A program made the position numbers and the translations under genes. Below are positions 1,248 through 7,972 of a stretch of 8,020 nt of DNA, piece after piece. Each line of letters begins with the position of its first letter. Within the stretch, counting starts at the first letter, position 1. This DNA comes from an uncultured Prevotellaceae bacterium (GTDB lineage: Bacteria > Bacteroidota > Bacteroidia > Bacteroidales > Bacteroidaceae). Under the pieces are notes generated by a model. The model had not been told where the DNA came from, did no database searches, and was given only the letters and a program-made list of their open reading frames with translations. The stretch lies in assembly GCA_946644025.1 (NCBI GenBank), contig CAMPCG010000124.1, forward strand, positions 1 to 8,020. Direction: 5' to 3'.

Positions 1248-1451
1248 GCCCACCAGCAGACCCACTAAACCCACCAGACCCCCAGCAGACCCATCAGACC
1301 CCCAGCAGCCCACCAGCAGACCCACCCCCCGGCCCCTCCCAAGGGAGGGGAGTAGAATGTTCTACCGCCTCCAAGTCTAACTACTCCCCTCCCTTGGGAG
1401 GGGCCGGGGGGAGGGTCTGGTAGTGGGCCTGGTGGGTCTGGTGGTGGGTCT
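1248..1451. repeat. Intergenic imperfect palindrome around GC-rich double hairpin (element copy 1)
   Basis: The core is a 31-bp perfect inverted repeat, 1325-1355 against 1381-1411, around a 25-base loop. With one mismatch it extends to 1318-1418. Each arm is itself a hairpin (CCCCTCCC facing GGGAGGGG at 1333-1350 and again at 1386-1403). Outside the core, low-complexity repeats built from CCCACCAGCAGA-like units lie on the left (1248-1324), and their inverted counterparts built from GGTGGGTCTGGT-like units lie on the right (1413-1450). The whole spacer between the glycosyltransferase and argC is therefore one nested palindrome. It could end transcription of the upstream gene in either direction, though neither hairpin is followed by a clean T-run. 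It belongs to the same family as the copies at 3175-3303, 4257-4564 and 7762-7972. Confidence 0.85.
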
Positions 1452-2573: not shown

Positions 2574-4244
2574 ATGGTACAACTGTTATGGGTAGACGAT
2601 GAGGCGGACCTGCTCAAGGCCCACATCATCTTTTTGGAAAAGAAGGGTTACGCCGTAACCACAGTGAGCAACGGCACCGATGCCATCGACCTGTGTCAGG
2701 AGCGCAGCTTCGACCTGGTGCTGCTCGACGAGCAGATGCCGGGACTCTCGGGCCTGGAGACGCTGCAGCGCATCAAGCAGATAACACCCGCCACGCCCGT
2801 GGTCATGGTGACGAAGAGCGAGGAGGAGAACATCATGGAGCAGGCCATAGGGCAGAAGATTGCCGACTATCTCATCAAGCCCGTCAACCCCAACCAGATT
2901 CTCCTGGTGCTGAAGAAGAACATACACCGGCGGGAGATAGAGACCGAGGTGACGCAGACGCAGTACCAGCAGCAGTTCCAGCAGATTGCCATGCAGATAC
3001 AGGACTGCCGCTCGTGGCAGGACTGGCAGGACGTCTACCGCCAACTGGTACACTGGGAGTTGCAGCTCGCCGGCACCGACTCGCAGATGACCGAGATGCT
3101 CGCCATGCAGAAGGAGGAAGCCAACCAGGGATTTGCCAAGTTTGTGAAGAAAAACTACCTGAGCAGCCTGGGCAGTCCTTCCCCCGGCCGACCCACCTCC
3201 CAGCCCCTCCCTGTGGGGAGGGGAGTGTATACAACTTCCGCAGAGAAATCAAGGGGCATAGGTAACTACTCCCCTCCCTCGCAGGGAGGGGCAGGGGGAG
3301 AGTCGGTAGAGGCTCCGCTCTTCTCCCACCAGCTGTTCAAGAAGAAGGTGTTCCCGCTGCTCGACCAGAAGGAGAAGGTGTTCCTCGTCGTTATGGACAA
3401 CTTCCGCTACGACCAGTGGCGGATGCTCTCGCAGGAGATTGGCAACCTCTTCGACATCGACGAGGGCCTGTACTTCAGCATCCTGCCCACGGCCACGCAG
3501 TATGCGCGCAACGCCATCTTCTCGGGACTCATGCCCAACAAGATTGAGGAGATGTTTCCCGAGCTGTGGGTCGACGAGGACTCGGAGGAGGGCAAGAACC
3601 TGAACGAGGCGCCGCTCATACAGACGCAGCTGGACCGCTTCCGCCGCCACGACACGTTCTCTTACCACAAAATCAACACCTCGGCCGAGGCCGACCGCCT
3701 GCTGCAGCAGTTCAGGCAGCTCGACAAGTACGACCTCAACGTGGTGGTGTTCAACTTCATCGACATGCTCAGCCATGCCCGGACGGAGAGCCGCATGGTG
3801 CGCGAGCTGGCCAACGACGAGAGCGCCTACCGCTCAATCACGCTGTCGTGGTTCCGCCACTCGGTCATTGCCGACTTCTTCCGCCAGCTGGCACAGACCG
3901 ACTACCGCGTTATCGTCACCACCGACCACGGAAGCATACGCTGCACGAAGCCCGTCAAGATTGTGGGCGACCGCAACACAAACACTAACCTGAGATATAA
4001 ACTGGGGAAGAACCTGGGCTATGACTCGAAGGACCTCTTCGTCATCAAGAACCCCGCCGACGCACAGCTGCCGTCGCCAAACCTCTCGACGAGCTACGTC
4101 TTCGCCACGGGCGACTCGTTCTTTGCCTATCCCAACAACTACAATTACTATGTGTCCTACTACAAGGACACGTTCCAGCACGGCGGCATCTCCATGGAGG
4201 AGATGATTATCCCGCTCATCACGCTGAAGGGGAAACGGCGGTGA
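2574..4244 (+). CDS. porX: PorX-type response regulator with PglZ domain, carrying an in-frame palindromic insert
   Basis: PorX works with the sensor kinase PorY and controls genes of the type IX secretion system; it is cytoplasmic. The 556-residue protein begins with a receiver domain (about 1-120): acidic D8/D9, phospho-acceptor D52 in LLDEQMPG, T80 and K102. A helical linker follows (about 120-195). The C-terminal PglZ/alkaline-phosphatase-superfamily domain (about 250-556) has candidate metal and catalytic residues D275 (VVMDNFRYDQW), T306 (LPTATQYARNAIFSG), D397 and H401 (IDMLSHARTE), D451/H452 (TTDHGS) and H536 (FQHGG). Characterised PorX is, as I recall, about 518 residues. The surplus here matches residues about 201-247, a proline- and glycine-rich stretch encoded by a GC-rich palindrome. 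Both flanking domains keep their motifs and no stop intervenes, so the protein is probably functional. No promoter is visible in the 53-base gap after argC. The start at 2574 directly precedes the first receiver strand. Confidence 0.95.
   Translation: MVQLLWVDDEADLLKAHIIFLEKKGYAVTTVSNGTDAIDLCQERSFDLVLLDEQMPGLSGLETLQRIKQITPATPVVMVTKSEEENIMEQAIGQKIADYLIKPVNPNQILLVLKKNIHRREIETEVTQTQYQQQFQQIAMQIQDCRSWQDWQDVYRQLVHWELQLAGTDSQMTEMLAMQKEEANQGFAKFVKKNYLSSLGSPSPGRPTSQPLPVGRGVYTTSAEKSRGIGNYSPPSQGGAGGESVEAPLFSHQLFKKKVFPLLDQKEKVFLVVMDNFRYDQWRMLSQEIGNLFDIDEGLYFSILPTATQYARNAIFSGLMPNKIEEMFPELWVDEDSEEGKNLNEAPLIQTQLDRFRRHDTFSYHKINTSAEADRLLQQFRQLDKYDLNVVVFNFIDMLSHARTESRMVRELANDESAYRSITLSWFRHSVIADFFRQLAQTDYRVIVTTDHGSIRCTKPVKIVGDRNTNTNLRYKLGKNLGYDSKDLFVIKNPADAQLPSPNLSTSYVFATGDSFFAYPNNYNYYVSYYKDTFQHGGISMEEMIIPLITLKGKRR
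3175..3303. repeat. Palindromic element copy 2, in frame inside porX
   Basis: The stretch has two GC hairpins: CCCCTCCC with GGGAGGGG at 3204-3223, and again at 3271-3291. Around them lie outer C-rich (3178-3187) and G-rich (3293-3300) ends. The two halves are inverted copies of each other around a spacer (3227-3267). The right half shares TAACTACTCCCCTCCC with copy 1, so copies 1 and 2 form one subtype. The left half has about 14 extra bases (roughly 3189-3202) compared with copy 1. Read in the porX frame it gives codons for residues about 201-244, rich in P, G and S, without stops. Boundaries are approximate because the pre-insertion sequence is unknown. Confidence 0.8.
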
Positions 4245-4256
4245 GGGCCCCCCTCT

Positions 4257-4564
4257 GCTAAATGAGAAATGAGAAATATGATTTGACTTGTCACCGGAAC
4301 TTTATCCCTGAATCCACTTTAAAAGTCCAAGATATACGCAAACGACGGCGCAGCCGCTCCCCTCCCTTGTAGGGGAGGGGCAGGGGTGGGGTCAGTATAT
4401 ATTTAGCTGGCAGGAAGTTAGAGACCCCACCCCTACCCCTCCCCTTGAGGGGAGGGGAGCGGCTGCGCATAGTTTTTTACGTTGTATGCTCATATCCATG
4501 CTTTTTAAAGTTATCTCATCCCTTAAAGGTAATCATATTTCTCATTTCTCATTTCTCATTTAGC
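4257..4564. repeat. Palindromic element copy 3 between convergent genes
   Basis: The outermost ends are inverted AATGAGA-type heptamer tracts. Bases 4261-4283 are a perfect 23-bp inverted match to 4531-4553, and the right end has one heptamer more. The core 4348-4468 is a GC-rich palindrome with arms GCGCAGCCGCTCCCCTCC. Each arm is also a hairpin (4359-4380 and 4436-4457), and an inner inverted repeat of GGGGTGGGGTC type flanks an AT-rich loop near 4394-4422. The element fills the gap between the porX stop and the stop of the 48-residue minus-strand ORF. It may serve as a two-way terminator. Bases 4344-4468 match 7802-7926 (copy 4) with one difference. Confidence 0.88.
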
Positions 4565-4571
4565 GTAGGCT

Positions 4572-4718
4572 TTACTCGCCCTCGCCCCAACCTTCGTCGT
4601 CGCCGGCAAAGCTTACAGACCTTCTCTGCGGTTCTGGGTCTGAGTATTGCAAGAACGTGTATTTAGCTTCAATGTGGACGGTCTCCGTCGTGGGAGCCAT
4701 GTATTCTTTCTTCTTCAT
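4572..4718 (-). CDS. Small hypothetical protein (48 aa) downstream of the CotH gene
   Basis: The minus strand has an ATG at 4718-4716 and a TAA at 4574-4572. The 48-residue product starts MKKKEYMAPTTETVHIEA and ends in a very acidic, glycine-rich tail (AGDDEGWGEGE). It has no signal peptide, no membrane segment and no cysteine. A strong Shine-Dalgarno, AAGGAGG, lies 9 bases upstream of the ATG, unusual beside its neighbours, and is the best evidence that the ORF is translated. It begins 21 bases after the stop of the CotH-type gene, so the two probably form an operon. I cannot assign a function. The MKKxxYxxP opening recalls small uncharacterised Bacteroidales proteins, but that is from memory. 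A leader/tail peptide or a small partner of the secreted protein are untested ideas. Confidence 0.7.
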   Translation of the reverse strand: MKKKEYMAPTTETVHIEAKYTFLQYSDPEPQRRSVSFAGDDEGWGEGE

Positions 4719-4739: not shown

Positions 4740-7346
4740 TTATTTTACGATTACCTTAACTCCGTTTACTATGTAGACGCCCTTGGTCGTCTGCACGTTT
4801 ATGCGCTCGCCGGCCTGAAGCCTTGCCTTGCGCAGTACGACGCCGCCCAGGGTGCTGACGCTGACGTCCATGGCGCGTGGTGCCACGACGCTGAGCTCGC
4901 CTTGGCTGGCGAAGATGGCCAGGCTGTTCTCGGCCGACAGCGCCTTCACGCTGTTAGCCTCGTCGCCCAGGGCGATGCGCAGCGAGCGGGCAGTGGCGCC
5001 GCCCTGAGTCTTCGGCGTCCACAGATAGGCGCGGAAGGGGTTGGTGGTCAGGCTGCCCGTGGCGTGCCAGAACTCGTTGCTCTTGATGTAGTAGTAGTCG
5101 TTGGCGGCGTAAGCCTCGTCGGTCACGTTGAACTGCGTCTTCTGCATCACGCCCGTCAGGGTCCAGCCCTCCACGGTGCTCTTCTCCCAGATGGTCTTCT
5201 TGCCCACCTTTGCCACGGTGACGTCCTCGGCGGTAGCCGTAACCGTTTCGGCCTGGTTCTTGGCCATGAAGAACACGGGGGTGTAGCCTGCTGCGGCTGT
5301 GGCAGCGTCGGCGGGGTCTATGGCGTTCATCACCAGGGTCTGTGTGCCCTGTTCGTCGGTGGCGACCTCGCCTAAGTGGAAGAAGCTGGCCGTCTCGTTC
5401 TCGGCCTGCTGCAGGTCGAAGGGCAGAATCATCGTGCCCCAGGTGTTGCTCACCGTGCGCTGGTAGGAGGCCTGTGCGGCCACGAACTTGTCATCGCTGT
5501 AGAACGGGTGTCCGTCCACGAGGCGCAGCTCGGCGCAGGTCTTGTTGCCGGCGGCGTCCTTCCTCACGTTCACGATGTTATAGCCTTCAGGCGATACATC
5601 GGCATCGATGGTAGCGATGGCGTTGGGCGTCTGCTCGCCGGGCGTCCAGCTCTGGGCGTAGAAGCTCTCGGCGGTGCTGCTCTCGGGATAGACGGTGAAG
5701 TAGTAGTAGGCCTCGCCATCGGCCTCAGCCTCCGAGCAGTTGTTGCACACGCGGCGGTAGGTGCCGTCGGCCTGTTTGGCAAACATGCAGTCCTCGTAGT
5801 CGTGCTCGGTGCACTCCTGGAGCGTGGCGCAGCCCAGTTTGTCGTATTGCGCCTTGAACTCGGTCTGAACATAGCTCGTCCTATCAGGAATGAAATCATT
5901 CATCACCGCGTAGGCATCGTCAAGACTATTATAGTGATTGCCGTCGTTCCAGCTGCTCAGATTGTAGTAAGCTCCTGCACCGCCGTTATACCGATCTGTG
6001 TAGTTGAGCACTGCCGACTGGCTGATGGTGGCCCTCAGTTCCTGAGCCTTCTGCTTCAGGAAATCTTCTAGGCCGACGCTCACCTCTTGCCAGCGCTCAT
6101 AGACGGCTTTCATGAAGTAGGGGTCGTTCCATGCCTTCTCGCAGAGCTGGCCAAAGGGCGTGATTTTGAATTCCCAGAAATGTTTCCCCTTAATGTCCTT
6201 TCCGTCAATCTTGTAGTTCCAGGTCAGGTCTAAGTCCCACACGGGGCCGAACACGATTTTGCTGTCGATATTCTCCATCCAGAAATAGTTGTTGCCGTAG
6301 GCGGCATCGTAGTTACAGGTTATTTCGGAAACGATGAATGCATCGACAGCCGCATCCAGGTCTACGTATCGGCGCCAGTTGTCGTTGGGGTCGGTCTCGG
6401 GCTTGTAGAGCAGTGTGGCCACCTTCGACAGCTTGGCTTTCACATCATTGTATTTGGGGTCGGTCGAGGGCCCGCTGGCCGTTGCAATGTCGGGGTCGGG
6501 GCTCTTCACGTTCACCAGGAAGTCGGCCCCATAGCCAGAGCCATAGCTGCCAAAGCTGATGGCGATGTAGGGGTCTTCCTGGAATCGGTCGTTGGGGTCA
6601 TCCACGTTTCCCTCGAAGAAATAGCCGGTATCCTCGTTGATGGGCACACGGCGGTCGGCGATGTTCACGTGGTCGGAAATCTGGTAGGTGCCGAAGTATT
6701 GGTTGTTGATGACCAGGTCCACGAACTTGGAGGCAGGAACGAAAGTCATGCCCATGCGTTTCTGCAAGGCTACTGCAAGGGCGTTGCGTATCAGCGTTGC
6801 GTCGTAGTAGTTGGCCAGTAGCGTCCAGTTCTTGTCGGTGGCATAGTCGTTCACTTCTACGCCGTTCTCTTTACGGGTGAGCAGGTCGGCCTTCTTGTCG
6901 AACTTCAGGCGGAAGGGCTTCTTGGGCTGCCAGTCGCCATAAGTCCATTGACCTATATACCAAGTAGAGTTTCCTCGTCCGCGCACGCCGAGCCACTCGT
7001 TGCGCTCCTTGATGGTGCCCCAGTCGTCGCGGATGGTTATCTTTGTCCGGTAGTACCAGTCGTGCTTCTTTGAATCATCAAAAATGTAGCCGAGAACCTC
7101 CAGCTCTGCCTTGCCGTCAATCATCCTTACGGTACTCTTGTTGGTGGTGGCGTCGTAGTCTGTCTTGTAGATTTGCAGATAGACCGTTGGAAGGTTAGTT
7201 TTCTGCGGGAAGCTGTCCAGCTCTTCCTGCGTGAACTGATAGCCGAAGGCGTTGTTGCGGTTGGTAGCGCCGCTGTCGGCCCGGCTGCTGATGGTGCTTG
7301 CAGAGAGCAGAGCCATCAGCAACCCTGTGCGAATGGTGTTGTTCAT
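4740..7346 (-). CDS. Secreted CotH-domain protein with T9SS-like C-terminal sorting domain
   Basis: The 868-residue product has a signal peptide (residues 1 to about 23, hydrophobic core GLLMALLSA, no lipobox cysteine). A CotH domain follows (about 53-480): GVRGRGNSTW (120-129), KKPFRLKF (142-149), WTLLANYYDATLIRNALA (174-191), FGTYQISDHVN (218-228), FIVSEITCNYDA (337-348) and FGPVWDLDLTWN (366-377). In Bacillus, CotH is an atypical protein kinase of the spore coat; the role of secreted CotH proteins in Bacteroidota is not established. Residues 506-537 hold five cysteines (C506, C512, C520, C534, C537), perhaps a small metal-binding or disulfide module. A beta-rich region contains NTWGTMILPFDL (634-645). 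The last 60 or so residues end in TKGVYIVNGVKVIVK, typical of T9SS type A sorting domains, so the protein is probably exported and surface-attached or released. An in-frame ATG at 7409 would put extra residues before the signal peptide; 7346 fits better. A 48-aa ORF follows after 21 bases. Confidence 0.92.
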   Translation of the reverse strand: MNNTIRTGLLMALLSASTISSRADSGATNRNNAFGYQFTQEELDSFPQKTNLPTVYLQIYKTDYDATTNKSTVRMIDGKAELEVLGYIFDDSKKHDWYYRTKITIRDDWGTIKERNEWLGVRGRGNSTWYIGQWTYGDWQPKKPFRLKFDKKADLLTRKENGVEVNDYATDKNWTLLANYYDATLIRNALAVALQKRMGMTFVPASKFVDLVINNQYFGTYQISDHVNIADRRVPINEDTGYFFEGNVDDPNDRFQEDPYIAISFGSYGSGYGADFLVNVKSPDPDIATASGPSTDPKYNDVKAKLSKVATLLYKPETDPNDNWRRYVDLDAAVDAFIVSEITCNYDAAYGNNYFWMENIDSKIVFGPVWDLDLTWNYKIDGKDIKGKHFWEFKITPFGQLCEKAWNDPYFMKAVYERWQEVSVGLEDFLKQKAQELRATISQSAVLNYTDRYNGGAGAYYNLSSWNDGNHYNSLDDAYAVMNDFIPDRTSYVQTEFKAQYDKLGCATLQECTEHDYEDCMFAKQADGTYRRVCNNCSEAEADGEAYYYFTVYPESSTAESFYAQSWTPGEQTPNAIATIDADVSPEGYNIVNVRKDAAGNKTCAELRLVDGHPFYSDDKFVAAQASYQRTVSNTWGTMILPFDLQQAENETASFFHLGEVATDEQGTQTLVMNAIDPADAATAAAGYTPVFFMAKNQAETVTATAEDVTVAKVGKKTIWEKSTVEGWTLTGVMQKTQFNVTDEAYAANDYYYIKSNEFWHATGSLTTNPFRAYLWTPKTQGGATARSLRIALGDEANSVKALSAENSLAIFASQGELSVVAPRAMDVSVSTLGGVVLRKARLQAGERINVQTTKGVYIVNGVKVIVK

Positions 7347-7465
7347 ATACAATATTATTAAATAAAAGGTATAAAAGGTTCTTAGTATTATGACTGCCCC
7401 TTTCACCAAGGGAACAAAGGTTTTTCTTCGTGTTCAGCCGCTTGTTAGGTTAGCTTTGACGTGTG

Positions 7466-7649: not shown

Positions 7650-7754
7650 AAACGTCGTCAGTGTTTGTACAAACGCCGTCGGTGTTTGTACAAACGTCGT
7701 CGGCGTTTCTACAAACGTCGTCGACGTTTGTAGAAATGCCGTTGGTGCTTTCTT
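7650..7754. repeat. 21-bp tandem repeat of interrupted palindromes, 5 copies
   Basis: Five 21-base units begin at 7650, 7671, 7692, 7713 and 7734. The consensus is AAACGYCGTCGGYGTTTGTAC; the last copy is degenerate. Each unit is a near palindrome: in copy 4, AAACGTCG and CGACGTTT are exact inverted arms around a single T. The joints between units (GTTTGTACAAAC) are also palindromic. The period of 21 bases is about two helical turns. The tract lies about 180 bp upstream of the proposed CotH-gene promoter. It could be a regulator-binding array or a simple intergenic repeat; nothing in the window decides between these. Confidence 0.9.
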
Positions 7755-7761
7755 AATCTGA

Positions 7762-7972
7762 AATATGAGTCTACTTTAAGATGTCCAATGTATACGCAAA
7801 TGACGGCGCAGCCGCTCCCCTCCCTTGTAGGGGAGGGGCAGGGGTGGGGTCAGTATATATTTAGCTGGCAGGAAGTTAGAGACCCCACCCCTACCCCTCC
7901 CCTTGAGGGGAGGGGAGTGGCTGCGCCGTCGTTTGCGTATACCTTGGACTTTTTAAGGTGGACTCAAATATG
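7762..7972. repeat. Palindromic element copy 4 with long terminal inverted repeats
   Basis: The left end, from about 7762 through the C-rich block at 7817-7824, is an imperfect inverted copy of the right end from about 7906 to 7972. The shared parts include GTCCAA, GTATACGCAAA, GACGGCGCAGCC and CTCCCCTCCC, giving arms of roughly 60 bases. The middle holds the same GC double hairpin and AT-rich loop as copy 3, in the same orientation. This is the most complete copy in the window and the best guide to the element's ends. It encodes no transposase, so any movement would need help in trans. Exact ends and a target duplication cannot be fixed from one site. Confidence 0.85.

Follow-up and report, generated by a model that had tools for sequence, protein, structure and literature searches.

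The locus considered here raises the question of whether a palindromic repeat that lies between genes can also become part of a protein, and how such a segment is best explained. It is a stretch of 8,020 nucleotides, hereafter the window, from an uncultured Prevotellaceae bacterium (assembly GCA_946644025.1, contig CAMPCG010000124.1), in which the first-pass annotation had described a palindromic repeat in frame within porX. This was borne out, as the element at 3190-3304 lies inside the open frame 2574-4244. The segment is very probably one copy of a family of non-autonomous palindromes that have multiplied in Prevotella-like lineages and persist where they are in frame in tolerant loops. According to this explanation, elements with two GC hairpins in inverted order and a variable spacer would multiply in certain Prevotella-like lineages; a copy would settle in the porX linker without closing the reading frame; ribosomes would read through it, giving a disordered loop rich in proline, glycine and serine between the helical bundle and PglZ; and many household proteins would follow the same course in a small number of tolerant loops, with repeat families that differ by lineage.

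The limits of the porX element were placed by eye from the ends common to other copies. Folding of 3188-3306 as RNA gave -78.2 kcal/mol, in relation to -47.55 kcal/mol (standard deviation 3.68) for shuffled sequences, with a z of -8.33 and 0 of 200 shuffles as good. Furthermore, the element is tied to the other copies in the window by the inverted pair I18 and the direct-repeat families D3/D4. The repeat is at the place first described, but the added protein also includes about 16 nucleotides (3174-3189) before it, a stretch which is perhaps the remnant of an older or tandem copy. Plasmid sequences searched with 3170-3312 gave no match, and 113 stretches of viral contigs (L373 onward) fit the GC hairpin arm pattern. 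An Rfam identity was rejected: the 54 matches up to an E-value of 1 are nearly all microRNA models on palindromes, and none reaches the gathering score.

Pfam shows a Response_reg domain at residues 5-112 and a PglZ domain at 267-461 of the window PorX, and the phmmer alignment with PorX of P. gingivalis (7pv7) is interrupted at query residues 211 and 248. The tertiary structure was modeled with AlphaFold from 53 diverse sequences (mean predicted local distance difference test, pLDDT, of 82.9; an earlier model with a mean of 50.7 was set aside), and residues 203-243, between helices 172-200 and 251-264, are the sole long stretch with a pLDDT below 50. The insert thus lies between the two domains, where, according to the model, it probably adds a floppy loop between the last helix of the bundle and PglZ. 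The top 17 fold matches of the model are all solved PorX chains. Solved PorX chains have 520-540 residues, so the length of about 518 that the first-pass annotation gave for PorX fits. As a separate observation, P0053 and the PorX of L090 show a ten-residue in-frame extra, LRVGASAGMR, at about 47-56 of P0053, in the receiver domain after the second helix, which is possibly another repeat-derived insert.

A protein search for PorX scored 7,999 candidates, and the linkers were examined in the best 120 of these. In an alignment of 38 of the best 120, the linker is the chief site of length variation and the remainder is collinear save for small insertions. Four of the proteins (P0001 to P0004) carry the same insert as the window PorX, P0005 and P0006 show a single arm at the linker, and the others have different repeats or a short linker. 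P0001, P0002 and P0004 represent 5, 2 and 9 member sequences, respectively, which disfavors an assembly artefact. Named homologues close to the window protein belong to Prevotella. The gap expected in close PorX proteins was found, since the full segment is missing in them and a single arm, other sequence or a short linker stands in its place. In three relatives from the genus search, 94% identical over the PglZ part, the linker measures 48, 39 and 43 residues versus 84 in the window PorX. Between the same anchors, the near relative L119 has 39 residues against these 84.

In the genus search, PorX was found in 369 of 398 genomes at an E-value of 1e-100 or better. Linker extraction yielded none for 19 of 158 sequences, including L081-L087, which were not retrieved for PorX, and 24 of 151 PorX frames were left uncut. 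The GC palindrome is present as DNA in the PorX linker of L088, L089 and L090, and the same linker encoded by unrelated codons, which would have spoken against the insertion, was not seen. Other linkers contain GAGGTGAGAGG/CCTCTCACC arms (L007, L093, L102 and L107), CGAGG repeats (L009, L010, L094 and L095) or two more kinds of repeat (L134 and L137). Thus several other repeat families use the PorX linker, and the insert is not peculiar to PorX either, as many genes hold such elements.

Arm counts in other genes come from six related genomes: all sites were examined in G067, G147 and G396, the other three genomes were sampled, and paired arms were counted twice. Each of the six has between 14 and 128 occurrences of the strict arm pattern, and the reversed pattern has 0. 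Fifty-seven of 83 unique sampled arm sites are within open frames with at least 40 residues on both sides, so the repeat is also present in other open reading frames (ORFs) of related genomes, a kind of check that the first-pass annotation had suggested for the same genome. By genome, and with doubtful frames included, in-frame sites were 11/18 in G067, 14/19 in G147 and 14/17 in G396 (19 before removal of duplicates). Bacterial genomes are mostly coding, and this proportion is therefore no enrichment. Once four loci with doubtful frames are removed (L162, L220, L227 and L236), 52 sites stay in open frames. The host genes encode CTP synthase, alanyl-tRNA synthetase (AlaRS), PheT, RecG, RNase R, glutamate synthase, MiaB, threonine synthase and primase, among others; thus the palindrome lies in frame in unrelated genes, and orthologues without it were found. 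A Pfam scan of 38 of the 43 distinct frames behind the 57 sites, tallied manually, located the element inside a matched domain in 13 frames and between two matches in another 11, 24 in all; 11 frames have a match on one side only and three have none. When aligned to their solved counterparts, two of the three CTP synthase inserts and those of AlaRS and MiaB coincide with a break or gap. A shorter arm pattern is matched by 11 of 295 genomes in the order, G067 with 19 matches and ten others with 1-7, which indicates that the arm family expanded in few lineages. The CTP synthase matches G147:C89, G064:C16 and G120:C2 are listed with stop codons in the matched stretch, and these may reflect out-of-frame inserts or match ends past the gene.

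A search of 30 genomes found CTP synthase in 21, AlaRS in 27, RecG in 28 and a helicase in 29. Inserts of at least 10 residues are located in four loops of CTP synthase (22 distinct proteins), two of AlaRS (31 proteins; a third corresponds to a masked row), three of RecG (28 proteins) and two of the helicase (29 proteins), although some of these inserts have no recognizable palindrome and the rows include partial genes. Seven of the 28 RecG proteins have an insert in the loop that follows AQRAKLW, each a different one and two of them orthologous, and the two helicase loops have inserts in 13 and 12 of 29 proteins. Across the four enzymes, the loops contain different repeats in different lineages. 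Consecutive arms 91-200 nucleotides apart form 14 left-right pairs, one right-left pair and none in the same direction, and native coding sequence, recognized by eye, was found between the arms in CTP synthase (L164) and glutamate synthase (L170, L176, L223 and L235, the last two orthologous); seven of the 14 left-right pairs gave no such open frame. A bolder and rather doubtful reading of these data is that unrelated palindromic families recolonize the same few loops, with half-hairpins placed in coupled orientation around a spacer or native coding DNA by a dedicated insertion mechanism that diversifies the loops of household enzymes. If so, that mechanism would be a standing diversifying process for such enzymes, beyond tolerated selfish DNA.

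The linker data also bear on a functional role, in which the insert would be selected because a longer hinge rich in proline, glycine and serine alters the phosphorylation-driven dimerization control of PorX and hence type IX secretion. The insert does lie where the helical bundle (122-205) and PglZ (206-517) of F. johnsoniae PorX meet (PMC10951265), and inserts of similar length are at the same place in several relatives. However, the linkers of relatives differ greatly in length and sequence, some being very short, and like elements occur in enzymes that have no such hinge. On a tree built from 112 PorX rows with the linker removed and insert classes assigned by eye, insert versus none requires 24 changes; the GC double hairpin, scored separately, requires 11, six of them forced by well-supported branches. 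A linker that varies so strongly fits tolerance better than a conserved role, and selection for the hinge is unlikely; the inserts would then be near neutral.

An insert that is never translated, owing to ribosomal bypass of the hairpin or to splicing of the RNA, would make the frame irrelevant. Bypassed hairpin elements are known in yeast mitochondria, and the porX element is a very strong hairpin. Nevertheless, a frame-blind process should leave about one third of the copies in genes in frame, so 52 in-frame sites would call for about 104 out-of-frame sites, and at most 31 others remain. This ratio is a stronger argument than the codon phase of the 5' arms, which is shared by 19 of the 22 sites (P = 4e-7 for an expected 1/3; counted without doubtful frames, without L216, which is antisense of the helicase gene, and without L222 and L235, which are orthologous duplicates) and which is no proof when taken alone, since the sites were selected for open frames. 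In addition, bypass or splicing would lose the sequence between the arms of the CTP synthase and glutamate synthase copies, judged native by eye. We therefore regard an untranslated insert as very unlikely.

As for mobility, terminal inverted repeats AGAC(C/T)CTCCCC / GGGGAG(A/G)GTCT were recognized by eye in the RecG, CTP synthase and helicase copies. The GC hairpins are found as inverted dimers, with 58 left-right pairs and 73 lone arms among 200 arms at the loci examined, and AGTAG adjoins the hairpin in some copies (window 1308-1428 and L089) and not in others. An alternative is that no mobile insertion took place and that variable linkers came to look like repeats through slippage and through recombination with those between genes, as several kinds of short tandem repeat in the linkers of L010, L094, L134 and L137 and the lack of an empty site with target duplication might suggest. 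This is scarcely probable, given that unrelated genes in a single genome contain two-hairpin units whose inverted ends are alike, that elements also lie inside catalytic domains, and that the reversed arm pattern has no match in the same genomes.

Several observations weigh against multiplication of mobile palindromes with persistence in frame. Insert classes are clustered on the 112-row PorX tree (for the GC class, 0 of 500 shuffles are as low), so part of the pattern is inherited, and this tree cannot separate gain of the insert from its loss; moreover, the named homologues nearby are proteins of metagenome-assembled genomes. With regard to the frames, that those in use are free of stops is no evidence, because the choice of sites required it, and open arms are not peculiar to genes, since the 26 copies outside ORFs are also open in one (10 copies), two (13) or three (3) frames. 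Unused frames contain a stop within the arm in 22 of 44 cases for 5' arms and 9 of 52 for 3' arms; as just half of the unused 5'-arm frames have one, stops alone cannot explain the phase bias, and selection on the peptide or insertion in a fixed register may contribute. Split genes beside copies outside ORFs were not seen among 10 same-strand ORF pairs, a weak test, with Pfam matches on both sides in three pairs, on one side in two and on neither in five; one pair represents two whole chromate-transporter domains. Y1_Tnp matches were found in 8 of 10 genomes (seven above the cut-off) at 17 loci, and no RAYT gene flanked by the repeat was among them, as only one of the 17 (L203, below the cut-off) has arm-like sequence within the DNA retrieved around it. 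Neither a target-site duplication nor a clean empty site was resolved, the orthologues being too diverged, and no parent transposon or mobilizing enzyme was found, Y1_Tnp being the one parent element sought.

The window contains three further intergenic copies, as had been proposed, although only that at 1308-1428 has the arrangement of the porX element and the other two are inside out (Table 1). The copies at 7806-7926 and 4348-4468 are 95% identical across the 151-nucleotide repeat D1.

Table 1. Features of the window related to the palindromic element and its copies
Feature	Position	Strand	Description	Evidence
Intergenic copy, same arrangement as the porX element	1308..1428		Between the glycosyltransferase gene and the semialdehyde-dehydrogenase-type gene	I3; fold z -11.67
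porX	2574..4244	+	Receiver domain, helical bundle and PglZ, 556 residues; host of the insert	ORF, PF00072, PF08665, fold matches
Proline-rich coding stretch 5' of the element	3174..3189	+	Extra; in the window and P0001, not in L119
Palindromic element	3190..3304		Inverted outer ends, two GC hairpins, variable spacer; + strand open in the porX frame	Sequence, repeats, fold
Left (5') hairpin CCCCTCCCTGTGGGGAGGGG	3204..3223	+	Reads PLPVGRG	Sequence, translation
Right (3') hairpin CCCCTCCCTCGCAGGGAGGGG	3271..3291	+	Reads SPPSQGG	Sequence, translation
Intergenic copy, arms inside out (R then L)	4348..4468			I5, D1; fold z -12.57
Second inside-out copy	7806..7926			D1; fold z -13.38

Other repeats are also found in the window. 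Short tandem repeats at 2-43, 2524-2574 and 4537-4561 (units of 10, 7 and 7 nucleotides) are directly 5' of start codons or beside the 4348-4468 element, which is flanked on both sides by inverted arms (4252-4283 and 4531-4569), and 7650-7736 contains about four copies of the 21-nucleotide unit AAACGTCGTCGGCGTTTGTAC, which also pair as inverted repeats. Near porX, the minus strand encodes an 889-residue protein with a CotH kinase domain (4740-7409), whose C-terminus presumably resembles a type IX sorting domain, and a small ORF of 48 residues (4572-4718) starting with MKKKEYMAPTTETVHIEAK.

Palindromes that code for protein are known as a peculiarity of Rickettsia and some few other bacteria. 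Relatives of a genus common in gut and rumen seem to hold them in core enzymes, alanyl-tRNA synthetase, CTP synthase and RecG among them, at a frequency that would be enough to map insertion-tolerant loops and the origin of new disordered loops. The neutrality of such loops and the means by which the repeats move become testable questions. Among the literature matches listed, considered by title and start of abstract, none describes in-frame palindromes in Prevotella or other Bacteroidota.

The elements resemble miniature inverted-repeat transposable elements (MITEs), among which PMC10969869 names BrickBuilt of P. gingivalis and QMITE1 of Coxiella, in that they are short, have inverted ends and lack a gene of their own; they differ in that neither a target-site duplication nor a parent transposon was found. 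The GTAG/CGTC REPs and REPINs are likewise GC hairpins, found as singlets and inverted dimers, and PMC3733652 includes intragenic cases, such as tRNA synthetase and repair genes. It also describes two Xanthomonas species whose recB genes carry different REPs at nearly the same position, which sets a precedent for recurrent insertion sites. Prevotella-like elements are also GC hairpins and often inverted dimers; however, REPs are mostly intergenic according to the same source, in contrast to 57 of 83 sampled sites in open frames here, and the Y1 transposase genes here are not flanked by the repeat. Rickettsia palindromic elements (RPEs; Ogata et al. 2000, 2002, as cited in PMC10969869 and PMC3733652) are described in the former as palindromes some 150 bp long; of their ten families, three are in frame inside genes, with nearly half of the 44 R. 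conorii copies. The host, the GC double hairpins and the several other repeat families in the same loops set the Prevotella-like elements apart from RPEs. Both are palindromic repeats read in frame inside genes, and the likeness to RPEs that the first-pass annotation had drawn, which is one of described mode, is supported by the in-frame palindromes in many unrelated genes.
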